Origin: Sergeia podlipaevii
Taxonomy: Eukaryota > Euglenozoa > Kinetoplastea > Trypanosomatida > Trypanosomatidae
Direction: 5' to 3'
Length of the DNA: 25,109 nt
NCBI GenBank assembly: GCA_030849805.1
Contig: JASANZ010001928.1
Span: 1 to 25,109, forward strand
Below are positions 3,003-25,043 of this stretch, piece by piece. Made by a program: the position numbers and the translations under genes. The notes under the pieces were generated by a model. It saw nothing but the letters and a program-made list of their open reading frames with translations, searched no databases and was not told the origin of the DNA. Each line of letters starts with the position of its first letter. Position 1 is the first letter of the stretch.

Positions 3003-5894
3003 ATGCAACCGGTGCTTCCTCCGCTTCTTTTCGGCGAGGATCCTTCCCGCGGCGGCGAGGACACGCTTGGTAGCGCAGTCCGTCGCCGGCTCTATACTCT
3101 TTGCTCCAATGCATACACCAGCAACCTTAGTCCCGCTGAACTATGGGTACAACTAGAGCTGCCATACTACTCGGCGTCGTACACTACCGTGCGCGACCTC
3201 ACCGTGAGCGTGGCCACCTTCAACGTGGCCTGCAAGAAGCCAGCGCTTAGCGCAGCCGAGTACGCCGCACTGGCCTCCCTGGGTAGCGTCGGTGGTAATC
3301 ATGAGGATAACGCCGCTGCTTCAGCACAGGCTGGCGAGCGGCCCGATGTGATGGTGCTTTCATTTCAAGAGATTGACATGGGGGCCACAGCGCTGTGGAA
3401 GATTGAAACCGAGGCTGCCGCGCCGTGGGTGCAGGGGGCTTGTGCAGCTGTTGGTGCAGACACGACCACGCGCGCTGCTGGGCCCCGAGTGCCGCCGTAT
3501 TACATGTTGCCACCTCGTCAGCTTGTTGGCATTCTTCTCTGTGTCTTTATAAGGCGGGAGCTTCTCCCTGGACTTGCCGAGCACGCGGTAACGACGGTGG
3601 CGACGGGAGCGCTGGGAGGCATGGGAAACAAGGGGGCGGTGGGGGTCCACATGGTGCTGTATAACACAAGCATCTGCATCATCGGTGCCCACCTGGCTGC
3701 TGGGCAGGACTCGGTCGCAAAGCGCAACGATGACATCAACGTGATTCTCAAGACAATGGACTTCAGCGCAAAACGGAAGTCTGACGGCTCGGAGGGAGCG
3801 CCGTCTGCTGCGACGGGGGTGTCTGGAACAGCTGTCTCCATGGCCGGTGCTGGAGGCCCAGGGGTATCTGGCGGAGGTGGAGGCTCCACTTCTGCTGCTG
3901 CTGCGAGCGGTGGGGTGTTGGCGGTCACACCACTGCCGCTGCTCCCACGAGACCACGACATCATTATCTGCGCAGGAGACTTCAACTACCGGCTCTCCAC
4001 CACGTATGAACGCGCCGCCTCGCTGGCCCGGTGCTGCCAGAGCCCGCAGGGTCGGTCAGAACTCTCTTCTGTGGTGCCGACCCTTCTAGAGTACGATCAG
4101 CTACGGGCGGAAATGCGTGACCCACTGACACCGTGGCATGGCTTCGTGGATGTAACCCCTGAAGGCTTTCTGCCCACGTATCGCTTTGATGTAGGCACGT
4201 GCCAGTATGACACAAGCGAGAAGCGCCGCGTGCCAAGCTACACGGACCGCATATGCGTGTGGACGAGAACCATGAGTGAGCGATGCTGCTGCTGTAACGA
4301 CACTAGAGCGGCCTGCGGTTTGCCAGCGCATTACGCTGATGCCCCTGGGGGCTTTATTGTTGAACGTCTTGGTGCACTGTCGTCCATCTGCATGAGTGAC
4401 CACAAACCAGTGGTCGCGCTGCTGCGCGTGCCGCTTCGGGTGACACGTGAGGAGGAGCAACGCCGCTGTCTTGGTGAACTCCGTGCCACCGTCACGGCGG
4501 CAGGGGGGTCTAGTTTTACAAGTGCGAACAGGGGTAGTGTGGCGCTGGATGCGGTTGGCGGAGCTGTGGTGGCGCTGAGCGTGGGGGAGGTGTGCCTTGG
4601 GGAGCTACAGTATCATCGGGCTGGAGGAGGCAGTAGCTCGAAGCGCTGCACCGTGAGCGTCACGAATATTGGTCAGGCCACAGCACTGGTGTCTGTGCAT
4701 CGACGCACCTCAGCGACGACGAGCAACAACGCAAGTGGTACTGACTTCTCGGCAGGTGCGTGGCTGCGTGTGTGGCCACAGTCCGTGGTGATCCTACCCG
4801 GTGAAAGTGTAGAACTAGCAATTGAGGCGAAGGTGGAGGCACGACTCATGCCGTGGCTATCTAGTTGGGCCCCACTCAGCGGTCGTGGCCAGCTGTCTTT
4901 GACATCTCAGCTTGCCTTGTGCGCGCGGAGCACTCTACAGTGCTGTGGCTCTGGGCCCCTAGGGAACGTTGTGAGTTTAGCCGCCGTCGCCGCTGGAGCT
5001 CCACCGCCCCTTGTGCTGCCTTTGATATGCACCGCCACGCTGCTGCCGAGCGTGTTTGCGAATAGTCTTGACAACATATCACTCCTAGGGCACCTGCCGT
5101 GTATAGCCGGCTACGAGACGAAGTTGTCTCCTCGTGAGTCCACTGCTGCGTCTTCGCAGCTGCTGCTGATGCGGCCGCAAGTACCCAAGGAGTTGTGGGT
5201 TATGGCAGACGCGCTGTCACGCTCGCCACAGTGCAAAGGAATGTTTTCTGTCCCGTCATCGCTCGTGACGCTGCTGGCTGCCGCGGTCGATGAGGGCGGC
5301 GGCGGCTGTGCTCGCGTAGACGCGGCCCAAGAGCTGCGGGAGAAGGAGCTTCGGGAGGGCATCATGACCCACCTTGACACGCGTGCAGAGTGCTTCCCTG
5401 TTGGGACCGATCCCCGCGCGCTCTCCCAGTGTCTTCTGATCTTTCTCGCACAGTTGCAGATGCCTGTGGTTCCCTTCGCTTTCTATCACGCCGCTCTTGC
5501 TGCTGGTAGAGCCTCGGTATCTGGCTCAAGCAATGGAGTGAGGGCCCCGGTGGCATTATTGCAGGCGCTACCAGTGCTACACGCGAATGTGTTTGTGTAT
5601 GTCGTTTCCTTGCTTAACTTGTTGCTACGCCCTGTTCATTCAACTGTCAATGGATTGACAGCGTCTTTTTTGGCCGAGGTGTTCAGTGCGGTGATGATTA
5701 TGCGTCCGCCCCCGTGTGGGCCCGATGTTGCAGCGGGGGATGCCGCTAGCGCTGCTGCGGAAGTGATGCGTCATGGCGAGGGTGGCGCCGTGAATCTAGC
5801 GCTTCGTCAGCAGATGGCCACGGAAAGAGCAGACGCAACGGCACTAGTAGCCTATTTCCTTACCACTCCACCCGAGATACTGATGAAGTACTGA
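3003..5894 (+). CDS. OCRL/INPP5B-like inositol polyphosphate 5-phosphatase with ASH and RhoGAP-like domains
   Basis: A 963-residue phosphoinositide 5-phosphatase, expected to remove the 5-phosphate of PI(4,5)P2 or PI(3,4,5)P3 on endocytic or Golgi membranes. The catalytic domain (about 65-480) shows all family blocks: FNV (N74), FQEI (E123), GNKGAVGV, a substrate His (H230), GDFNYR (D326, N328), YDTSEKRRVPSYTDR (D415, R416) and SDHKPV (D466, H467). A Ser/Gly/Ala-rich insert separates H230 from GDFNYR. Residues about 518-685 look like an ASH domain, with the typical ILPGESVEL strand. About 695-955 resembles the RhoGAP-like module of OCRL/INPP5B, including VPKELWVMADAL, but the arginine-finger position reads GMFSVPSS, so GAP activity is unlikely. 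No PH domain, transmembrane segment or CaaX box is seen. ATG 3003 is the first start after an ATG-free leader. The 5-phosphatase call is very firm; the ASH/RhoGAP call rests on pattern and order. Confidence 0.95.
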   Translation: MQPVLPPLLFGEDPSRGGEDTLGSAVRRRLYTLCSNAYTSNLSPAELWVQLELPYYSASYTTVRDLTVSVATFNVACKKPALSAAEYAALASLGSVGGNHEDNAAASAQAGERPDVMVLSFQEIDMGATALWKIETEAAAPWVQGACAAVGADTTTRAAGPRVPPYYMLPPRQLVGILLCVFIRRELLPGLAEHAVTTVATGALGGMGNKGAVGVHMVLYNTSICIIGAHLAAGQDSVAKRNDDINVILKTMDFSAKRKSDGSEGAPSAATGVSGTAVSMAGAGGPGVSGGGGGSTSAAAASGGVLAVTPLPLLPRDHDIIICAGDFNYRLSTTYERAASLARCCQSPQGRSELSSVVPTLLEYDQLRAEMRDPLTPWHGFVDVTPEGFLPTYRFDVGTCQYDTSEKRRVPSYTDRICVWTRTMSERCCCCNDTRAACGLPAHYADAPGGFIVERLGALSSICMSDHKPVVALLRVPLRVTREEEQRRCLGELRATVTAAGGSSFTSANRGSVALDAVGGAVVALSVGEVCLGELQYHRAGGGSSSKRCTVSVTNIGQATALVSVHRRTSATTSNNASGTDFSAGAWLRVWPQSVVILPGESVELAIEAKVEARLMPWLSSWAPLSGRGQLSLTSQLALCARSTLQCCGSGPLGNVVSLAAVAAGAPPPLVLPLICTATLLPSVFANSLDNISLLGHLPCIAGYETKLSPRESTAASSQLLLMRPQVPKELWVMADALSRSPQCKGMFSVPSSLVTLLAAAVDEGGGGCARVDAAQELREKELREGIMTHLDTRAECFPVGTDPRALSQCLLIFLAQLQMPVVPFAFYHAALAAGRASVSGSSNGVRAPVALLQALPVLHANVFVYVVSLLNLLLRPVHSTVNGLTASFLAEVFSAVMIMRPPPCGPDVAAGDAASAAAEVMRHGEGGAVNLALRQQMATERADATALVAYFLTTPPEILMKY

Positions 5895-7832: not shown

Positions 7833-10800
7833 ATGAGCGAGTCCGCTGCTCACACCGTCTATGTAGATGCAGCCGCCAACCTATCTTGCACTAGTAGTAG
7901 TAGTGGCCCTGGCAACGCCAGAGAGTCCCAACAACAGCAGCAGCAGCAACAACAGTCCGAGGTGGCGCTGGCTGAGTTCACTGTCCTGCCGCTCCACACA
8001 CCATCGCAGGCACAACTATCAGCAACACCATCTGTCATGCACTCCCCATCATCAATGCTACGTGACAATAGCAAAGGGCAGCCATCGCCCTTCTCATCAC
8101 TCCGTCGCGGCGGTGGAGGGCCAGCCATCAAGTCAAATAGGCCCATCAGCACAACAACAGAAAACAGTCAACACCTCAAGGAGCACATTGCTCATTTACT
8201 GAACCGCACGGATTCCTTCCCACTACTCGTAAAAATCGCACGTACCCTTGAGACGCATGCTGCGCAGGACGAGGACAACTCTCAGTACGGACCATGTCTG
8301 CCACTCAGCCCACCGCCCCGCTTCCAGGGCGGTGATGATGCGGTGACGACTGGACAGAACACACCAGTTTGCAGCGATACCATGGCGACGATGGTATCGG
8401 AGAGCACCGTGTCAGGGGGCGAGGACTCCGAGCGCCAAAACAGCTGCGATATGAGGATGAGCAGAAACCGGCGCTTGCGAGCGCGACGAGGGCAGCGCAC
8501 GATTCGGCGGTTGGCGCTCTCCGTGGTAGATGGCTCAGCACCACTGACATACATGGAGGACGGAGACGTTCCTGCGTGCTACCCAGCACTGACGAACACA
8601 CTGACCGCGGCAAGTGAGGATGACTTGTCGCGCAGTGGTGCGTCCTCGCCGGCATACTTGCGCGGGACCTTCGCGGATCTTGAGCGCAGAGGTTTCTCGC
8701 CGTCCGACGCGAGCGGTTTTGCCGACCTCGAGGATGCCAATGATGGCCTCTTCGCTTGGGGTGAAGCCGGTGCGGACATGGACCCTCTAGACGCCACCAC
8801 TGGCACTGCAATGCTACCCAGGGCGGTGCGACGGGGTGGCAGGCGCGTGGCTGTCTCAGCGGCACCGTGCGCCATGACAACAGACTTGAAGCGCTTTAAA
8901 AGGCTCAGCGAGAGCACACGCAGATATGTACCCAAGTCTGCGGTCGAGGAGGCTCACTTGCGTAGGCTGGTGCGTGCGTGCCACTTGTTTGTGGACAGCA
9001 GGGCGGAGAATACGGCTGCGGAGGTTATTAATGAGGGATCTGTGAGGGCTGAAGATACGCATCACACTACTGATGCTGTGGAAGACAAGACTGCGGAGGC
9101 GACAGGTTCATCTCCTCCTTCTTCGCCCAACGCCACGGACACAATTGAAGAGATTGTGCATGCGATGGACAAGGAGGTTCATGCTGCTGGGACGGCGATT
9201 CTTGAACAGGGACAGGAACCCAAGGAGCGCATGTACCTTCTGGCAGAGGGTACTTGCGAGGCTGTGAAGAATGGTAAGTCAGTTGGTACTCTGCACGTGG
9301 GCTCGACCTTTGGAGAACTCGAGCTGATGTATAAACAGGCTCGCTGCGCTGCTACTATACGCTGTGTAACGCGGTGCGTTGTGTACACCCTTGATGAGGA
9401 GTCCTACCATCGCGCGATCCTCAACCGGTCTTTGCAGAAGCGCAAAAGATATGAGTCGGTTACAATGACAGTGCCTTTCCTACGCTCTCTGCCAGACTAC
9501 GAACGCATGAGGGTAGCGGAGGCGCTTTCAAGTGCAACGTATCACAAGGGCGACTACATTATACGCTTTGGCTGCAAAGGCACGCATCTACACTTTATTT
9601 TGGAAGGTGCAGTGCAAGTGCTGGGCCGCAAACGAGGCAGCACGGTCGAAGTGGTCACCTTGGGGGTCGGGAACGTGGTTGGCGAGCTGGAGTTTCTCTT
9701 TGGCCACCTCACCGTTGCTGATGTGGTGGCGTGCTCTGAGCTGGTGATCACTGCATGCATCAGCCGGCGCCACTTTGAGCTCATTGTGGGCCCCATCAAG
9801 GACCGTCTTACCGAGTTTATTGGATCTAGTAGCACTTACGAGAGCTACTATCTGAGCGAGGTGGCGAATGCAAGTGTGCGGAGTGAAGTCAGCCGCTCCT
9901 CGCAGCAAGCGCGACGTCGTACCGCCTCCGGGGCTCAGCAGCCGCTCTCAGCGACGATGAACAGTCAGAAGGCCTCTGCAGCCGTTTCTGCGTTATCTAC
10001 AGATGAAATGAAGGCAAACACAACCGAGTCGACGTCGCCGCAGGAGAATGTGAATAAAACCTTTCTTCATGAGGCCGCCTCGTCCGCTGCTACTGTGTAC
10101 GTAGCTGAAGGGGCTAGAGAGGTAGCAATGCTCACGGATGTGGACCCTCGTGGAGAGATGGTGTTGCCCATTGCTAACCCGCAAGCCGCTGCACCTGCTG
10201 CGGATGGCGACGGTATTTGTGCCGCACGGATCCTCTGCCGCTTCCCCATCTATCCGCTTAGCAAGGCGGGCATGGCACTGGTCGGTCTCCGAGAGGACGG
10301 GGTGATTGCTCTATGGAACGAGGTCCTCGAGGGCGTCACAGGGTACGCTGCGCGGGATGTGATTGGCCAAAGTGTGTACTCCTTCCTTGTCAACGAGAAG
10401 GAGCAGGCGGTGATGTTCAATGCAATCAGTGCGGCGCGCAGCTACGCCGGCAGAACCGACGCTTTCTTTGCTGATGCGACTGCGCTATCAGCGAGTGTGA
10501 GTCTGAGTGTTGCAGGCGCCAGCGTTGTCACTCGCGCGCCTCATAAAGGCACCGGTAGAGGCGCCGCTAGCGGTATAAACGGTAGTGGTGATGCTGGTGG
10601 CGCTGGTAGCGGCGGCACTAAAGTTGGTCTCGCGGCACTTGCCGGCATCATCAAGAACCGCTACACATTTTCACGGAGCGATGGACTCACAAAGGCGGTT
10701 CTAGAGCTTACGCTAGTGCCGCCCACGTTGTCAGCGGGAGAGGAGGCGCCTGAGATGCTCCTCGGCGTGGGCGAGGAGGTGCTGCAACGATCCCAGCACG

Positions 10801-13800
10801 TCGCAGACCAGTCGCAGTGGCTCTCCGCGCAGCTGAAGGACATCATTGCGAATGACAAGGTAGACTATGAACAAAGAATAGCAGCTGTGACGCAGGCTCT
10901 CAACAACTACGAGTTTATGTACCGTGCCATGGCTGTTACCACGGAACATTTACGAGTGGTGAACATACGCCAAATGCTTGGACAGGTCATTATGGACTAC
11001 GGTGCTGAGTGCGTAGAGCGCGCAGTGTTTGTGAGGCAAAGCTTTGAGAAGCTTCGGAGCGAGCAGGTGTACTTGGACTCTGCGCTGCTTCCAGAGTGTC
11101 TGAGGTATGCCATGGGGGTTGCGCTACGGCTTTGCGCATACCCTGTTAAAGTACCTCAGTCGTCACAAGCACGTGTAGAAGCGTCTTTTGGTGATGGCGG
11201 GTCGTCTTTGCAGCCGCAAGATGTGAACTCTGGGGAATCCAATGAATACGCAACTACCAGCATTGCCATTATGGTGACGCTTACTGAGACAAATGGCATC
11301 GAGTTTCTCGTTATCAACTTCAATGTTGTAGGCACGGTTGGGTTTCCTCGTGAGTTTATGGAGCTCTTAGATCGACCACCACATGACTTGAGCGACACAG
11401 ACGGCGAAAGCGATGATAGAAGCTGCAGCAGCGGTGATGATCGCAGCAGCAATCGGGATAGTGGTGATGAGGACGAGAGTAAGACGAGAAGGTTAAAGAG
11501 GGAGGAGCAAAGTAGCGCTGCTCGTCATCCACGGATGGGTGGCGCTGCGTCAAGATGGCGTGGGGTTGGGCCTCGAAAAGGACGGCAGCGGCGGCCCTTG
11601 ACCTCACACCGGCAGCTTGTGCAGCTTTCTCGTGTACGAGCGGCAGTGGAAGAGCAGGGCGGAACGATACGTGTCTTGTCTGAAGGAACGTGGACTGCGA
11701 GCACCTTCACTGATGAGGACGATATCGAAACCGAGAGCAAGGGAGAGGTGCTGATGGAGGGGTATGATGGCGGTGGCAGTGGATCCAATATGGTGATACT
11801 GATTCCTTACATTGCTGCCAGCGATAAGGACACTGGGGACACGGTTGCAGATGATGAGGAGGGCGGCTCTGCGATGATGAACGATTTGAGCGAGGTGAGC
11901 AGGAGCGTGGCATCGACCAGTGACACATCTCTATCTGCGGTAGATTCCTCCCCAATGGCGGGCACATATGGCATTACACTTACAGACCCGTTACATTGCG
12001 ATCACGTCGTCATGGAAGGCTTCGGGGCCGTTGGAAGCGTCATCGCTGGGGCTGGAGACAGTGTCACTGGCCCACAGCAGCTTCGCAACACTTACACCTT
12101 CACCACACTCATAGCGGAGGACACCGCGGCGCACCGCAACATGCTCTGTGCTTTTCTATGGGAGCGCAGACACGCCGTGCTGCCTGCCTACTCGCTCGCC
12201 GACATCGATCGCCTCGCTGGCGTAGCGGACATTCTTATTATTGACCTCGCTCAGTCGGTTGCGTCAGCCATTGCCGCTAAAGAGGACCCCATCGCGCTGC
12301 TTAAGGAGAAGTCTCGTCACATGGCGATCATCATCACAGCTACGAGCTTCGAGGGTGCGGGGGCGATAAGTGCGTTGGTGTACGAAGCCGCCGGGTTTAT
12401 TACGCTTAAGAAACCAGCCTCGGCAGCGCAAGCGGCGCGAGCGTTGCGGCGCGCAGAGGATAAAATAGCAGTTTTTAAGCAGGAAGCGGAACGCATTGCG
12501 CAAACTCGGGCGACACTGGCGAAGTCTAGCCGGGCTGAGTGGGAGCGTGGAGCACTGTTGGGCAAGGGCACCTTTGGGGAAGTGTACAAGGCTATTGATA
12601 AACTCACCGGCGGCACGATGGCAATGAAGGAGATACATATGACGGGGGAAAACATCAAGATGGAGCCCTTTGTAGCGGAGATCGCAGCCATGTGCAGCCT
12701 GCAACATCCTAACATTATCCACTACTTCTACTGTGAAGAGTCCATTGCACCGGATGGGGTGACCATGTTCCGTGTGTTCATGGAGTACGCTCCAGGTGGT
12801 ACGCTGCAGGCTCTGCTGAAGAAAACTGGCAAGTTACCTTTCAAGGAGCTTCAGGCGAAGTTGCGCGACTTAACAGAAGGGCTGGCGTACATTCACTCGC
12901 AAAACTACGTGCACTGCGACATCAAGACTACTAATGTTCTCCTGGGACACGATGGGAAGGCAAAGATTGGTGATTTTGGTACAGCGCGGTCTGTTACGCG
13001 GGGGCGGTTGCTCCATGACATGCAGGGAAGCCCCCTGTACATGTCTCCAGAATGCATGTCCGCGGGCGAGTTACTTGAGGAAGAGGAGGCGACTGAGAGC
13101 ATGCTGGGTGCAACAGTGTATGGAGAGGCGGGTACGGAGAGGCAGCGGCGGAAGGTGGGGTACAGTTTTCCCACTGATGTGTGGTCACTTGGGTGCATTG
13201 TGCTGGAGATGGTGACGAACAAGCCACCTTTTGCTCACATAAAAAAACAGGAAGGACCCGCGCCCTTTATCAACTACATCACCTCCCTCACTGACGTCCC
13301 CGATCTCTCTGTCCTCTTCAACGAGCCTCCGTCTGTTGTGGAATTCGTCTCTGCGTGCCTCAACCCCGACCCGGCTCGGCGAGCAACGGCAAGTGAGCTC
13401 CTACAGTTCAGCATCTTCCGCGAGGCCTCGGATGAGCACACCAAGTCAGCTATTGAGGCACTGCAGCGCGCGCAACTGCTGCATGTTCTCAACAAATTTG
13501 TGGCCTTTCAGGACCCCGTAGCGGTGGAGGTGGAGGTTGCCAGCGATGATGCAACAGGGCGGCCAGCAAAGCCGCACATGAGAGACTTCTTTGACTCATC
13601 TTCTTCTTCTTCCGACTCTTCTTCGTCTCGATCTTCATCCTCTGTGTCTTCTGATAGGGCGGGCGGTTCGATGGGTGGTAGTTCTCATGTCCAAGGACGC
13701 GAACTCGTACAAGGAGACGACAGCCACAGTATGAGCAACAACGATGTTGGTGGCGTGGACGGTGGCCGGCGTGAGGGTGGCGGACTCCGGCGAAGACGGA

Positions 13801-19282: not shown

Positions 19283-22200
19283 ATGGACGACGCCCCTTCT
19301 CTCGGCGATATTGAAGGCAGTCCTCATGCTCAAAGCGCCACGCGGCCGGCCTCTCGTGGCGATGACAAAGTGCCTGAGGCTGAAAAGCATGCTGCTCAGC
19401 AAGCAAGCCTTGGCAGCCACCAAGAAGTGATGCAAGCACCCTCGGTGGTGCTCTCAGATGATGAACGCTTGCCCGGGGGGGTCTCTCTCGAGAGTGCTCA
19501 GCAGATATCTCATTCAGCCCTTTCAGCAACTGGTTTGCGGTCGCCTATGACGTGCAGCTTCCTCTCGCCTCGCTCTGGTGTCTTTGGCTCTACTACATCT
19601 GGCGGCGCTGTGACATCTCAGCCATTGTCGTATTCGCTGACAGTGAAGGCAAACGTACAACGCGCGGCTGTCTTGTCACCAGAGAGAGTCGCGCGTTTCA
19701 GTCCAGAAAGCAGAAGCATGACGCCTTCAGAAAGAGAAGGCGATGGGGTGGGCTCGGAAATGTCCCCTCCAAGGGCTGAGACACCTTCATCGTCTTCTAC
19801 GACCTCTTTCTCGAAAGAGCGCGCGGAGGAGAACTTTAAGAAGGCCAAGGCGGCCATTAGGGAGCAATTTGAGAAGGCAGCTCAGCGAGCGCATGATCAG
19901 CATCCGCTGGATTCAAGAGAGGAAGGCACGTGCAACACTACAGCCGCCGGTGCCGGTGTGGACGCGAGCATGCAACTTGCTCTTAGTATCACCAGCTCCA
20001 ACAACAACAGCGACGCTGGGGATCGCTTATATCATGTTATCCAGTCAGTTATGCAAGCTGCTGATTCTGCAGATGACGATGGCAAACACGACGATGGAGT
20101 GGACGACAACACTGGCCACAAGATGGAGGACGGTGACTGGAGGGACGATGACGACACCATTGTTGCCCCTAGCGCTTTCTTTCAATCGCCGACCTCGCTC
20201 GAGACGAGCAACAACCGCATCATGGAGGCCATCATTGCACGTGGGCACGCTGCTCAAACCGATGCGGAGCTGCGATGGTTGTATCGTCAATCGTACTTGC
20301 TGTCGCTGCTTGATCCTGAGGAGCTCGACGTGGTGGTGAGTAGCTCACTCAGGCGTGAGTACTCCAAGGGGGGCATGATCTTGCCCCTGCACACTAAGCT
20401 GCATCATCTCTATGCAGTGGTGTGGGGAGAAGTCGAGGTGTTCAAGTTGTCATCGCTTCACCCAGAGGAGAAGGCGCTCGAAAGGGCGTATCGCTTGGTA
20501 CAGCACATGAAGACGGCGGGCGTGACAATCCGCGGGTCGCCCATGGGTGGCGGCAGCGCGCCTCATACGTATAAGGACACGGAGCTCGTCTTGAAGGACC
20601 AAGAGTCGAGTGAGAAGGACGAAGGAGCCCTGTACACGCACGTCGCAACGCTGCTTCCAGGTCAGGTATTTGGTACCGAAAGCTTTGTCCTCGACGAGGA
20701 CTCCAAGTACCTCTTCAGGGCTGGTGGCAAGACACGAAAGACGGTAGTTTCATTGATCCCCTTTGCTCATCTTCGCAACGCGTTAGCTCGTAACGCACGC
20801 TTTTCTCAGGGCGTAGGGGCCGCCATCGCGGGCTCGGTGGAGATTTTTGGTCCGATTCGCGAGTTCTGTCGGTATGTTTTCTCCTCCAATGCAGCGCAAA
20901 ACGAGTACCTTCCTCTCTGGTCTATCGTGGAGAGCTACACAAAGATCAACAATGTCATTCACACTAAGATCTTCAGTAAGGAGCTGGACACCGGCGCGTG
21001 GGGATACGCCGTTAATCGCCTCCCTGAAAATGTTACGTCCACCTTTTGTTTTGATTTGGTCCATTCCCTCCCACCCTTTGTGGCCAGCCGCATGCAGGTA
21101 GAGGCGCGTGCTGCGGATGTACGCAAGAACGCAGCAGCTGAGCATCGTAGTCACGGCAGTGGCAGTAGTCGTACGTCAATCACCTATATACGCACGAAGG
21201 AACGTCGGCGTTGCACGTGGCACTTGGGTATGGAAGGCAAGACGCTGGTGCTGCTGCGTGATGGGTTCACCGACTTGCTAGATTTTCTGACCATGCTGTG
21301 CTTGCACATTATTGAAAGCAATAAGCTGCGCGGTAGGGTACAAGGTATGGTGCACCCACCTGCCATTGACATTCTTGACGACTATCTCCGAGAACGGGAT
21401 CGTGAAATGCAGGAGAGTGTTGTGACGTCTGCTGAAGAGGAGATGGGTCGTATCAAACGTGTGCTGCAGCGTATGCCACTAACCTCAGAGGAACGTGCTG
21501 GACTGATCCGCAACTGGGGGGACAAGACGCTGCTCCGCGTATATGAAGTAATGATGCACCGAGAGGAGTACAACGTACGTATCGACCCGAGTATATCGCG
21601 CAAGTTTCAAACCAATCCGTTTCATGAGTGGGCACTAAATCTGAGGGCGTGTGTTCTTGCGAAGATTGGCCTTGATCCCACATCAGCGCTTCCGCATGAC
21701 CTCTACATTGATGTCGTGAGCAGCAATACTCACTGTATCAAGAATCTTCTCTGTAGCTTCAGCCGCAAGTACAGGAAGGAAATCGTGGACTATGCTGTAC
21801 AATATGAGCAGAAGAAGCTTGGCAATGCAACGGAATGGCACAACATGGACGACATGCTGTACAGCTCTCTCACTAACTTCTTGCACAATTACCGTCCAGA
21901 CTTGAAGGAGGAGTTCACCAAGACGCTCGAGCTGAATGGCATCACCGTACTGCAGGACACCGCGATGACAGGTCTGCAGGTCGACGTCATCCCTGTACAC
22001 TCCCTTAACCTGGATACGATTGACGACGCGATTAGAGCGTCCCTTCGTCAAGTGTATGAACATAAGATATTGAATCCGGCAATGCCAACATCAGCAGGCA
22101 CCACTGCAGCTGCTCCTTCTGCTACTACTGGTTGTGCGGCAAAACTCTTGGATGCGCAGCAGCAGCTCTCTTGGGCACGTGTTAGCGATCCTGCTGTTGC

Positions 22201-22987
22201 ATGGAGTTTAGACCACAGTTCCCCACCAGGCAGCCGACGAGTGTCTACGGCGACGAAACCAACAACAGCCACTGCCGCCGCCTTCTCCCCAAACAAAAAG
22301 GCCATGCCACACATGGCGTCTTCGTTCCGCCTACCACGGCACTTTATTATCAACATGGATTTTGCCTTTGGGGCTCAGGCTGAGGGTATCTGTCGTGCAG
22401 TATTCAGTGCCTTTGGAAGGTGTATTCGGAGTGTGAGTGTGATGGGCAAGGCTGGAGGACTTACGGGGAAACGCGGCGACATACAGCTAGCCAGCCATGT
22501 GCTGCTCTCCAAGTCAAGTTTGATTCTTGAAGATAATCAGGATGAGCTGCGAAACTGCCGCAATCAGGACATAACAAGCGAGCGACTGCAGGAACTGGCA
22601 GGTCCCGCCGTGCACGTGCATCATGGCAAGGTGCTCACTGTCACGGGAACTATTCTGCAGAACGTGCCGCTTCTCCAGTACTACAAGCGTGTGTGGCGCT
22701 GCGTTGGGACGGAGATGGAGGGGAGCTACTTTGCACGTGTGATAGAGGACTTCTACCGTCAAGGTATCGCTCATCCTGATCTCATCACACGCTTTGCTTA
22801 CTACACGAGCGATTTGCCGCTGGGTCACAGTGAGCGCGACGAGGCGGAGGAGAAGGAGGTCGAAGGTACCTCAAGTGTCGGCGGTACGGCTGCTGCTACG
22901 CTGTCAGCTCCCATGACCCCAATGGAGGGTGTTCCGCCGCTCTACGCAATTGCTAGAGGAATACTGGAAAAGGTGCTACTACCATAA
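19283..22987 (+). CDS. CNB-like / nucleoside-phosphorylase-like fusion protein of unknown function
   Basis: A 1,234-residue protein I cannot name. Residues 1-320 are low complexity with a charged helical piece near 180-205. Residues about 333-520 have the pattern of a cyclic-nucleotide-binding fold (SLLDPEELD, GGMILPLHTKLHHLYAVVWG, GQVFGTESF with E466), but an insert of ~70 residues splits it and the binding Arg is absent, so ligand binding is doubtful. The middle (about 540-940) is folded-looking and helical, of no family I can name with confidence. After a Ser/Thr/Ala-rich linker, residues about 1018-1190 match nucleoside phosphorylase/nucleosidase blocks: MGKAGGLTGKRGDI (1054-1067), EMEG (1144-1147) and YYTSDLP with D1177, where purine nucleosidases keep the substrate-binding Met-Glu and the general-acid Asp. 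ATG 19283 follows an ATG-free leader. From memory, bacterial proteins of unknown function share these blocks; unverified. Confidence 0.8.
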   Translation: MDDAPSLGDIEGSPHAQSATRPASRGDDKVPEAEKHAAQQASLGSHQEVMQAPSVVLSDDERLPGGVSLESAQQISHSALSATGLRSPMTCSFLSPRSGVFGSTTSGGAVTSQPLSYSLTVKANVQRAAVLSPERVARFSPESRSMTPSEREGDGVGSEMSPPRAETPSSSSTTSFSKERAEENFKKAKAAIREQFEKAAQRAHDQHPLDSREEGTCNTTAAGAGVDASMQLALSITSSNNNSDAGDRLYHVIQSVMQAADSADDDGKHDDGVDDNTGHKMEDGDWRDDDDTIVAPSAFFQSPTSLETSNNRIMEAIIARGHAAQTDAELRWLYRQSYLLSLLDPEELDVVVSSSLRREYSKGGMILPLHTKLHHLYAVVWGEVEVFKLSSLHPEEKALERAYRLVQHMKTAGVTIRGSPMGGGSAPHTYKDTELVLKDQESSEKDEGALYTHVATLLPGQVFGTESFVLDEDSKYLFRAGGKTRKTVVSLIPFAHLRNALARNARFSQGVGAAIAGSVEIFGPIREFCRYVFSSNAAQNEYLPLWSIVESYTKINNVIHTKIFSKELDTGAWGYAVNRLPENVTSTFCFDLVHSLPPFVASRMQVEARAADVRKNAAAEHRSHGSGSSRTSITYIRTKERRRCTWHLGMEGKTLVLLRDGFTDLLDFLTMLCLHIIESNKLRGRVQGMVHPPAIDILDDYLRERDREMQESVVTSAEEEMGRIKRVLQRMPLTSEERAGLIRNWGDKTLLRVYEVMMHREEYNVRIDPSISRKFQTNPFHEWALNLRACVLAKIGLDPTSALPHDLYIDVVSSNTHCIKNLLCSFSRKYRKEIVDYAVQYEQKKLGNATEWHNMDDMLYSSLTNFLHNYRPDLKEEFTKTLELNGITVLQDTAMTGLQVDVIPVHSLNLDTIDDAIRASLRQVYEHKILNPAMPTSAGTTAAAPSATTGCAAKLLDAQQQLSWARVSDPAVAWSLDHSSPPGSRRVSTATKPTTATAAAFSPNKKAMPHMASSFRLPRHFIINMDFAFGAQAEGICRAVFSAFGRCIRSVSVMGKAGGLTGKRGDIQLASHVLLSKSSLILEDNQDELRNCRNQDITSERLQELAGPAVHVHHGKVLTVTGTILQNVPLLQYYKRVWRCVGTEMEGSYFARVIEDFYRQGIAHPDLITRFAYYTSDLPLGHSERDEAEEKEVEGTSSVGGTAAATLSAPMTPMEGVPPLYAIARGILEKVLLP

Positions 22988-23570: not shown

Positions 23571-25043
23571 ATGCAGAAAATAAGAAAGATTATACAACGT
23601 AGATATCACAACCTTGAACCTTTACATCCTGTAAAGCCACTTCTAAAGTCGTGGACACTGCTTGTTCTGTTATGCATTTTGTTTGCTAACTGCTTCCTGG
23701 TATTGGTTATCTCGTACTCGTCATGGAATGTGACGGAGCAGCTCGACGGTGTGTACGTCGGCAGCCGCGCTAATGTGCGGCATGGTGGAGAGCTCGACCA
23801 CATAGTTGTCGACGGTGCAAGGAACCTGACCCCAATTGCATTTCCCGCGCCGATGGAGCACTTGTGGCGGCAGCATCCGCACCTGGTTGTGGTTGGTATT
23901 CTGGCTACTGATAAGCAGCAGCGGCGAGATATGCGGGATAACCAGCGGGCGACGTGGTTCACGTTTCCCAACGTCGCGACCAAGGACAATGACTTCACGG
24001 GTTACCTGCTTCCTCTATACGTGTGCTCGCTGCGAGCCCTTGTGCCGCCGTATGTCAGCGAGGAGATGGTGAGTGAGATGCAGACGTGGGGCGACACGCT
24101 GCTGCTGCGGATATACGAAAACCCTCCAACAAAAGTGCGTACACCGGGGGTAGGAGGTGGGTATGGCATGGAGTTTCATATGGCTAATTCGCGTAAGATG
24201 TTTCTGTGGATGCGATATGCGTACGTCACGTTCCCCAACGTCCCGTTTCTTGGTAAAGGTGACGACGATGTGTTTGTGTTTGTGCCGGAGCTGCTGAAGG
24301 CTGTGCAGCAGCTGCCCCGCATGTCCGTCATGTACGGCAAGGTGAAGACATTATCGAAGCACGTATTCCCGCATGGTCTTCTTTACCTGCTGTCTCGTGA
24401 CATCGTGTATGAGTATCTGGTGGATGACCTACTGAATTTTCTAGTGTGTAATCCTATTAGAAAGGAACGCTACCCTCACTATAAATCAGTTGTCCTTGAA
24501 GCCGAGGACCAGGCAATCGGAGTGGTACTGAGGCGCTTATATGATCGCAAAGTGCAATACAGAGAACTGCCGGACGGGTGGGAGCGCGCTGACTACAACG
24601 CCCCCGCTGACCTCCCGCCCCTCACTGGATGGGGCAAGTTGTACAGCGAGTACATACGACCCAACTCCACTGTGCCACGCACCGGCACTGTGTCTGACCC
24701 AGGCGATGGTACCCCGACTGCCACCTACTCATTCCCAGAGCACCCAGATCCGCGGAACTTCGTGTTTGTGTCAGATGCCTGCCGCATGAGAAATGCGCCC
24801 AGAATGAAAAAAAGGAGGCAGCTCCTTCTTGCACATCAGATAGTTAACCGCTCAGTGTATGAAGATTACTTCAACTACTATCGGATGGTAGGCAACGCTT
24901 TCGTCCAGTATCCGGTTGCGTTTAACGTTGTGCCGTCGCGTACCTCTTATGGTTATGCGGTGAACCTCGTGCGCAATGATTCATGCTGGTTATCAAGTAG
25001 TGTCCTTTCTACTTCCTATCCTCATTCAACATCGTTAAAGTAG
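23571..25043 (+). CDS. GT31-type beta-1,3-galactosyltransferase-like type II membrane glycosyltransferase
   Basis: A 490-residue Golgi-type glycosyltransferase, expected to transfer galactose or GlcNAc from a UDP-sugar to surface glycans such as phosphoglycan or GPI side chains. A short basic cytoplasmic N-terminus (about 1-25) precedes one signal-anchor helix (about 27-49, TLLVLLCILFANCFLVLVIS). The lumenal domain starts near H104 with LVVVGILATDKQQRRDMRDN and ATWF, the GT31 entry motif. The metal-binding DxD is GDDDVF (D231-D233), and EAEDQAIGVVL (310-320) matches the family's EDxxxG block near the catalytic base. NVT and NST sites are possible N-glycosylation points. Related proteins in Leishmania form multi-copy families that modify lipophosphoglycan; whether this is one of them or a T. 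brucei-style GPI enzyme cannot be decided here. The final ~15 residues are Ser/Thr-rich and may vary. The first ~25 codons are AT-rich compared with the rest. Confidence 0.88.
   Translation: MQKIRKIIQRRYHNLEPLHPVKPLLKSWTLLVLLCILFANCFLVLVISYSSWNVTEQLDGVYVGSRANVRHGGELDHIVVDGARNLTPIAFPAPMEHLWRQHPHLVVVGILATDKQQRRDMRDNQRATWFTFPNVATKDNDFTGYLLPLYVCSLRALVPPYVSEEMVSEMQTWGDTLLLRIYENPPTKVRTPGVGGGYGMEFHMANSRKMFLWMRYAYVTFPNVPFLGKGDDDVFVFVPELLKAVQQLPRMSVMYGKVKTLSKHVFPHGLLYLLSRDIVYEYLVDDLLNFLVCNPIRKERYPHYKSVVLEAEDQAIGVVLRRLYDRKVQYRELPDGWERADYNAPADLPPLTGWGKLYSEYIRPNSTVPRTGTVSDPGDGTPTATYSFPEHPDPRNFVFVSDACRMRNAPRMKKRRQLLLAHQIVNRSVYEDYFNYYRMVGNAFVQYPVAFNVVPSRTSYGYAVNLVRNDSCWLSSSVLSTSYPHSTSLK

Follow-up and report, generated by a model that had tools for sequence, protein, structure and literature searches.

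What is a stretch resembling a hybrid histidine kinase doing in front of a eukaryotic Ser/Thr kinase in a trypanosomatid? The question is raised by a 25,109-nucleotide stretch of Sergeia podlipaevii DNA (assembly GCA_030849805.1, contig JASANZ010001928.1; hereafter the window), which encodes a 2,703-residue protein with about 600 residues between its PAS domain and its kinase. The original prediction had read these residues as a degenerate hybrid histidine kinase fused to a MAPKKK, and had placed PAS, a helical stretch, a HATPase-like part, a receiver-like part and the kinase, in that order, within positions 10260-13425 (residues 810-1864; residue n begins at window base 7833+3(n-1)). All of these elements were found in the claimed order. 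The complete open reading frame (ORF) reads CNB-CNB-PAS-DHp-like-CA-REC-kinase-long C-terminal tail, as judged from Pfam, homologues and a structure model; CA denotes the HATPase-fold domain and REC the receiver. Our analysis supports a degenerate hybrid-histidine-kinase cassette and an STE-type kinase in one chain. Other contigs of the 23.4-Mb genome are referred to by label, the window contig being C229.

Homology of the cassette to hybrid histidine kinases

Pfam recognized two CNB domains, a near-threshold PAS domain and a Ser/Thr kinase (3e-53) in the window protein and found neither a HATPase nor a receiver domain in it. Compared on its own with a hybrid-histidine-kinase profile, the window sequence scored 0.7%; the case for the cassette therefore rests on the relatives of the protein and on the structure model. 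A first protein search yielded ten homologues, including those of Leishmania, Leptomonas, Novymonas and Trypanosoma conorhini, and two further searches added T. rangeli, T. cruzi, Bodo saltans (B6DTM2), other relatives and hybrid histidine kinases. The working family of 21 rows was made up of the window protein, 19 homologues and C261, a paralogue encoded in the same genome. Nine of these rows are from Trypanosoma, Bodo and Bodo-like organisms (hereafter the Trypanosoma/Bodo rows), and 11 are the window, P0016 and nine Leishmania-type sequences (hereafter the window group); C261 is the remaining row.

The 20-row family matched the hybrid-histidine-kinase profile at 98.3%, and the window with its ten nearest relatives did so at 80.1%; ten column shuffles, five per alignment, gave at most 0.5%. 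The target profile has flaws of its own. Its 10 proteins were recruited by our own searches, nine through the T. conorhini query (6-27% covered, probably through PAS) and one, P0031, through the cassette; P0027 was cut at the wrong place, and two members end before the receiver. Single domains were compared by hhalign with profiles of four DHp, five CA and seven REC sequences. CA scored 98.4% with the Trypanosoma/Bodo rows and 96.8% with all 20 rows, and REC scored 95.6% and 95.9% with the same two sets and 93.5% with the window and its ten nearest relatives. Shuffles, made from the 20-row alignment only, reached a maximum over 20 of 1.1% for CA and 1.2% for REC, with maxima of 1.1-1.3% across domains.

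Comparisons with Pfam and the PDB are free of the weakness of a self-recruited profile. HATPase_c exceeded the Pfam cut-off of 26.4 bits in six of the 11 family members scanned (T. conorhini, 30.0; T. cruzi, 31.9; B. saltans, 35.5; P0015, 33.4; P0017, 39.9; P0030, 40.8) and fell slightly below it in P0013 (25.3 bits); Pfam found no HATPase_c in the window, P0001, P0007 or P0029. Response_reg was detected in two of the 11, both under the cut-off of 30.2 bits (P0017, 20.7; P0029, 14.4). Used as a query, the P0017 cassette matched 76% of its length to P0031, a protein with HisKA, HATPase and receiver domains (E, 7.4e-4), and a pairwise comparison of the two spanned CA and REC (E, 2e-6). Among PDB sequences, the cassette profile had 11 matches at E≤0.01, namely, six sensor kinases, with a FixL photoreceptor fusion among them, and five dehydrogenase kinases of the pyruvate or branched-chain type. 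The receiver-only profile had 10 matches at E≤1 by hmmsearch, the best at 0.02, and all are named as two-component proteins.

In the structure model, residues 985-1330 are not predicted to take an unrelated fold; a two-helix hairpin is followed by a CA fold with low-confidence inserts. The HATPase-like landmarks named in the original prediction fit this fold, with a helix at 1085-1101, a G1 loop near 1164-1171, a helix at 1258-1274 followed by G1276-G1277 and a strand at 1317-1325 ending in VILIPY. The VIA-align structure-match lists were filled by the CA domain, and the ETR1 CA structure 4pl9 was among its matches. ShkA (PDB 6qrj) and RetS (6dk7) have the CA fold in common with the window protein, and ShkA also has the CA-then-REC order; the window protein differs from both in having no phosphoacceptor His and no ATP-site Asn or Asp, and in that its effector is a eukaryotic Ser/Thr kinase. 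We regard the homology of CA and REC to hybrid-histidine-kinase domains as close to certain and the identity of the helical hairpin as a DHp domain as probable. The structural and profile check bore out the earlier proposal for CA and REC; the helical stretch had no profile match to DHp alone.

Loss of the histidine and retention of the receiver switch

In a MAFFT alignment, the segment W996-I1005 faces the H-box F-V-C-H-E-L-R-N-P-L of hybrid kinases. The histidine position is A999 in the window and A, Q, G, E, S or D elsewhere, and none of the 21 rows has a histidine there; the adjacent Q1000 is kept in 20 of 21. H1039, within TEHLR, had been put forward as a weak H-box. It lies after the second helix of the hairpin, the aligned site being A999, and is a histidine in 2 of 21 rows (window and T. 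cruzi), the others having R, N, D, E, C, T or a gap; we rejected it. Bodo and two Bodo-like rows, only three of the 21, have a histidine at the Q995 position, four residues upstream of site 999. As far as aligned sequences can tell, histidine autophosphorylation has very probably been lost, and the alignment dates the loss of the histidine to the ancestor shared by the sampled rows or earlier, unless it was lost repeatedly.

Site 999 is Glu or Asp in all nine Trypanosoma/Bodo rows, in C261 and in P0006, and A, G, S or Q in the other 10. An acidic residue at this site may mimic phosphohistidine.

The CA domain has kept its glycines in the window (G1167, G1170, G1276 and G1277), and its N-box Asn and G1 Asp have become V1096 and V1165, respectively; the missing N-box Asn had been predicted correctly. 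Both residues are present in eight of nine Trypanosoma/Bodo rows (the exception is P0029), in none of the 11 rows of the window group and not in C261. Judged by these positions, the ATP-site residues are lost in one part of the family. With no histidine at site 999 and the ATP-site residues replaced, phosphotransfer is, as had been expected, probably lost. The idea that free-living relatives might keep both boxes held for the N-box Asn in the Trypanosoma/Bodo rows, but not for the histidine.

The receiver expected at residues 1422-1545 is matched by profile (93.5-95.9%), and its switch residues are complete. The window has E1429/D1430, D1471, T1502 and K1527-P1528. D1471 and K1527 are invariant (21/21), E1429, T1502 and P1528 are kept in 20 rows, and D1430 is kept in 17; Asp, Thr and Lys occur together in 20 of 21 rows, the exception being the T1502 position in C261. 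By sequence, every orthologue has retained the switch. L. donovani and Leptomonas share an identity of 0.85 in the receiver and 0.86 in the kinase, as against 0.35 and 0.50 in two linkers; the corresponding values for DHp and CA are 0.91 and 0.66. A "repurposed relic," as the protein had been called, is too weak a term for a receiver whose Asp, Thr and Lys stay beside a decayed ATP site. In the model, one continuous helix is predicted from receiver α5 to the kinase border (Table 1), and the model of the Bodo protein has a similar long helix from α5.

Table 1. Features of the window and of two related genes of the same genome (window positions unless a contig is named)
Feature	Position	Strand	Evidence
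Whole ORF, 2703 aa	7833..15944	+	ORF list, Pfam, orthologues
CNB1, residues 450-529; E495, E497	9180..9419	+	Pfam, PKA-R alignment, row counts
CNB2, about residues 555-660; E618, E620; T627 at bovine R333 position	9495..9812	+	Pfam (two stretches), alignments, row counts
PAS core, residues 815-869	10275..10439	+	Pfam, 22.3 bits (cut-off 22.6)
DHp-like helical hairpin, helices 990-1006 and 1012-1034	10800..10934	+	Structure model, MAFFT with hybrid histidine kinases
CA (HATPase-fold) domain, residues 1041-1329, with long low-confidence inserts	10953..11819	+	Structure model, structure comparison, hhalign, row counts
Receiver (REC), residues 1422-1548	12096..12476	+	hhalign, hmmsearch of PDB, structure models
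D1471, receiver phosphoacceptor position	12243..12245	+	Kept in 21/21 family rows
Predicted continuous helix, residues 1531-1571, receiver α5 to kinase border	12423..12545	+	Model; kinase outside model
Ser/Thr kinase, STE/MAPKKK-like, residues 1571-1860	12543..13412	+	Pfam, 181.4 bits; kinase tree; row counts
C261 paralogue, 3,919-codon frame	C261:5327-17083	+	Pfam CNB, PAS, kinase; receiver by profile
C294 gene, 1,039 codons, PAS, HRD kinase at 755-998	C294:16239-19355	-	Pfam, hydropathy

Inputs, output and related kinases

The kinase has the catalytic residues K1599, D1696 and D1714, which are kept in all 21 rows. It is a non-RD kinase, with C1695 in place of the HRD Arg, and this Arg is replaced by C, G, A or S throughout the family (21/21); HRD is present in C294 and in all six other kinases sampled from the same genome. 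As a rule, non-RD kinases are not switched by phosphorylation of the activation loop. Since the kinase is non-RD, control by the preceding module fits. In the kinase tree, the window falls into one clade with P0016 and the L. donovani, Leptomonas, T. conorhini and T. cruzi members (99/99). The window gene is an orthologue within a family of kinetoplastid sensor kinases that have no strong membrane segments.

On the input side, PAS was above the cut-off in nine of the 10 other family members scanned (the exception is P0029). The PDB sequences nearest to the CNB pair were kinetoplastid PKA regulatory subunits (6h4g, 6flo and 6ftf; E, 1.7e-46 to 1.2e-44). In these subunits, Glu replaces bovine A202 and A326 and a neutral residue replaces the phosphate Arg, which goes with selectivity for nucleosides over cAMP (PMC6440977). 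The window protein resembles them in having Glu at both sites (E497 and E620, found in all 20 rows with CNBs) and a neutral T627 at the R333 site, where none of the 20 rows has Arg. The R209 site depends on the register. HMMER places R504 there, in a variable CNB1 column that has Arg only in the window and C261 among the 20 rows; in another register the site is C505, which is Cys in 17 of the 20 rows and Arg in none. The protein differs from kinetoplastid PKA regulatory subunits in that its CNB1 has an Arg alignable to R209, and in that its CNBs are the N-terminal part of a MAPKKK rather than a separate inhibitory subunit. The Glu signature perhaps points towards nucleoside, not cAMP, input.

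Searches of the genome for HisKA, Hpt and Response_reg each returned zero matches, and the same searches found matches in 12, 8 and 12 of 14 control genomes, respectively. Because they also miss the degenerate cassette of the window, the null counts cover recognizable copies only. They fit the view that trypanosomatids are without ordinary two-component systems. HATPase_c had six matches in the genome. By Pfam, one is of the branched-chain dehydrogenase-kinase type, two are of the topoisomerase type and two of the mismatch-repair type; the sixth gene has HATPase_c alone and resembles a mitochondrial dehydrogenase kinase by eye only.

Two further genes have a related design, among candidates drawn from the best-scored matches only, so that more distant ones could be missed. 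The C261 paralogue combines two CNBs and PAS with a CA-like region, which is weakly matched and carries large inserts, a receiver and a non-RD kinase; its receiver scored 99.2% against the family profile and keeps the Asp, with Met in place of Thr. C294 has hydropathy peaks of 3.46 and 2.46, as against at most 1.78 in the window protein (19-residue windows; no dedicated predictor). Single-sequence hhalign gave at most 5% for a cassette in C294; by eye, its receiver-like region keeps an Asp. In the kinase tree, the window, C261 and C294 fall together with the family and apart from six other kinases (100/99), C294 being flagged as a long branch. C363, C206 and C50 were rejected as cassette kinases; their matches start just before the kinase, and by eye they resemble kinases of other kinds that have no cassette.

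The cassette-plus-kinase design is not new. DAK (Tb927.9.3120) was described as sensor, DHp, CA, receiver and eukaryotic protein kinase (ePK); its His is mutated and its Asp kept, its conservation extends to T. cruzi, L. major and B. saltans, and a bacterial incursion was suggested (Jensen et al., 2021; PMC8519429). Our own plasmid search for a bacterial donor with the hybrid kinase P0031 returned at least 5,000 records and did not advance the donor question. The window protein shares with DAK a kinetoplastid sensor-DHp-CA-REC arrangement followed by an ePK, its sensor being PAS and its DHp seen by model only. DAK is a membrane (endoplasmic reticulum) kinase, whereas the window protein has no strong hydrophobic segment. 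By its architecture, C294 is the probable DAK orthologue; the T. brucei DAK kinase domain lies at 737-980 (PMC8519429), compared with 755-998 in C294. C294 is an HRD kinase, whereas the window protein, encoded by a separate gene, is non-RD and carries two CNBs. Common ancestry with DAK is possible: the kinase tree, built without named DAK sequences, places C294 with the family (100/99), but as a long branch, and the single-sequence comparison of its cassette stayed at or below 5%. What is new here is a relative of DAK that bears CNBs, has no strong membrane segments and combines the loss of the histidine-kinase site with retention of the receiver. Among the literature matches listed, with subscription literature mostly outside the scope, we found no description of a histidine-kinase cassette in this family.

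The window protein is probably an orthologue of LmjF15.1200/LmxM.15.1200. LmjF15.1200 was described as a very large STE kinase with two cyclic nucleotide (cNMP) domains and PAS, likely conserved in T. cruzi and without a T. brucei orthologue; kinases with cNMP domains number zero in T. brucei, one in T. cruzi and two in L. major (Parsons et al., 2005; PMC1266030, Table 2). Size, family, the two cNMP-related domains and PAS are shared with the window protein. A histidine-kinase cassette is not part of that description; in the text covered, "histidine kinase" occurs twice, for other proteins, and "response regulator" does not occur. Weighing against the assignment, the link was drawn from domain descriptions and chromosome size and not through an accession, and with two L. 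major STE kinases bearing cNMP domains, LmjF15.1200 could instead be the orthologue of C261. LmxM.15.1200 mutants have a loss-of-fitness phenotype in sand flies according to a 2022 review (PMC7618733); 15.1200 does not occur in the main text of the screen paper PMC7902614.

Two observations on this gene stand by themselves. LmjF15.1200 and Tc00.1047053505977.13 were the sole exception to a congruent classification of orthologues and have extensive homology outside the kinase domain (PMC1266030). LmxM.15.1200 is given as unique to Leishmania in PMC7618733, whereas the domain structure of LmjF15.1200 is likely to be present in T. cruzi according to Parsons et al. (2005).

The other genes of the window, all on the + strand, are as follows. 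Positions 3003-5894 encode an OCRL-like inositol 5-phosphatase (Pfam, 2.4e-44) joined to a RhoGAP domain (1.8e-07); an ASH match below the threshold lies between the two. A 1,234-residue ORF at 19283-22987 has DUF6909 (1.1e-94) and a sub-threshold CNB-like stretch at 358-391. A DnaJ protein (711-2228; 5.5e-26) and a galactosyltransferase-like ORF (23571-25043; 8.4e-07) lie on either side of the region and are ordinary by Pfam.

A proposed role for a cassette without its histidine

We lean towards reading the protein as a pseudo-hybrid-histidine kinase that serves as an allosteric relay to the MAPKKK. Tandem Glu-bearing, perhaps nucleoside-selective CNBs and the PAS domain would sense small molecules, and the DHp-like hairpin would dimerize the chain. 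CA, with ATP-site residues kept in Trypanosoma and Bodo and lost in the window, would act as a structural coupler. The receiver, with its complete switch residues, would relay the state through the long α5 helix to the non-RD kinase; D1471 might be switched by a small phosphodonor, by another kinase or by conformational input alone. The output may be phosphorylation of a MAPKK and a MAPK cascade. A histidine-kinase-like sensor also acts on a MAPKKK in ETR1-CTR1 of plants and Sln1-Ssk1-Ssk2 of yeast, but as separate proteins, whereas the window family has one chain. In ethylene receptors, kinase activity is largely dispensable. A more specific proposal, tentative and rather unlikely as it stands, is that purine nucleosides and PAS gate the MAPKKK: an orphan receiver, still fully switchable in cells without a recognizable histidine kinase, would turn the kinase on or off within one chain. 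Having outlived its histidine kinase, this receiver would now serve the sensing of purine supply, both in parasites auxotrophic for purines and in their free-living relatives.

Several points count against the relay. The structure model of the window has a mean pLDDT of 58.3, and its receiver, which is part of a longer cassette model and not a stand-alone fold, has its first strand and helix (model residues 461-490) at 28-50, the rest being at 63-85. CA of the window and its ten nearest relatives scored 0.7% by hhalign and is seen by structure only. Against the bacterial DHp profile alone, a weak test with four target sequences, DHp scored 0.1-0.2% in all three row sets. Since a dead ATP site and the absence of a recognizable histidine kinase leave no known phosphodonor, the conservation of D1471 might reflect folding. 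The nucleoside reading is incomplete, as judged from the alignments, in that the PKA phosphate Arg has a possible counterpart in R504; this and the poorly modelled first strand of the receiver weaken both the relay and the nucleoside readings.

The folding argument leads to the rival view that DHp-CA-REC is a pure fossil, a decaying spacer between sensors and kinase whose receiver residues are kept for folding. The loss of the His in all sampled rows, the loss of the ATP-site residues in the window group, the long low-confidence inserts in CA and the identity of the window CA to seven orthologous rows compared (only 0.22-0.43) all agree with this view. Against it stand a receiver about as conserved as the kinase between L. 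donovani and Leptomonas next to linkers that diverge, a switch Asp and Lys invariant in 21 of 21 rows and the persistence of the CA fold; we consider it unlikely. At the other extreme, D1471 could take part in an active phosphorelay and mainly control the MAPKKK, a one-chain counterpart of Ssk1 acting on Ssk2 in yeast, with DAK, C261, a PDK-like mitochondrial GHKL kinase, another donor or a small molecule phosphorylating it. The joint presence of Asp, Thr and Lys in 20 of 21 rows speaks for such a relay, but HisKA and Hpt have no match in the genome, though degenerate copies escape such searches, and DAK too is reported to be without its His (PMC8519429). We take this for a minor, if real, possibility.

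Two other explanations fare worse. Were the similarity of CA and REC convergent or a profile artefact and the stretch an unrelated alpha/beta region, the silence of Pfam on both domains in the window protein and the 0.7% score of its sequence alone would follow; against the family matches in Pfam and the PDB, we give this next to no chance. That the window gene is simply the DAK orthologue would account for the same order of cassette and kinase. The terms cyclic nucleotide, cNMP, CNB and cAMP do not occur in the main text of the DAK paper, however, which places DAK among transmembrane kinases (PMC8519429); DAK is a T. brucei gene, whereas LmjF15.1200 has no T. brucei orthologue (PMC1266030); and the separate DAK-like gene C294 has the hydropathy peaks that the window protein does not have. 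We rejected the window gene as DAK itself, and orthology to it is very improbable.

For the family, the presence of two CNB-bearing cassette kinases that have no strong hydrophobic segments (window and C261) beside a probable DAK in one genome suggests that the DAK fusion is not a lone oddity, and the window-type gene spans Bodo to Leishmania. Its members form a graded series, with the ATP-site residues kept in Trypanosoma and Bodo or lost in the window and Leishmania-type rows and the receiver switch kept throughout, so that the role of a receiver without a histidine kinase becomes directly testable. If LmxM.15.1200 belongs to this family, its sand-fly deletion phenotype (PMC7618733) gains a candidate mechanism. 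If the input is a nucleoside, the protein would provide a sensor-to-MAPK route in organisms whose PKA is known to be cAMP-independent.

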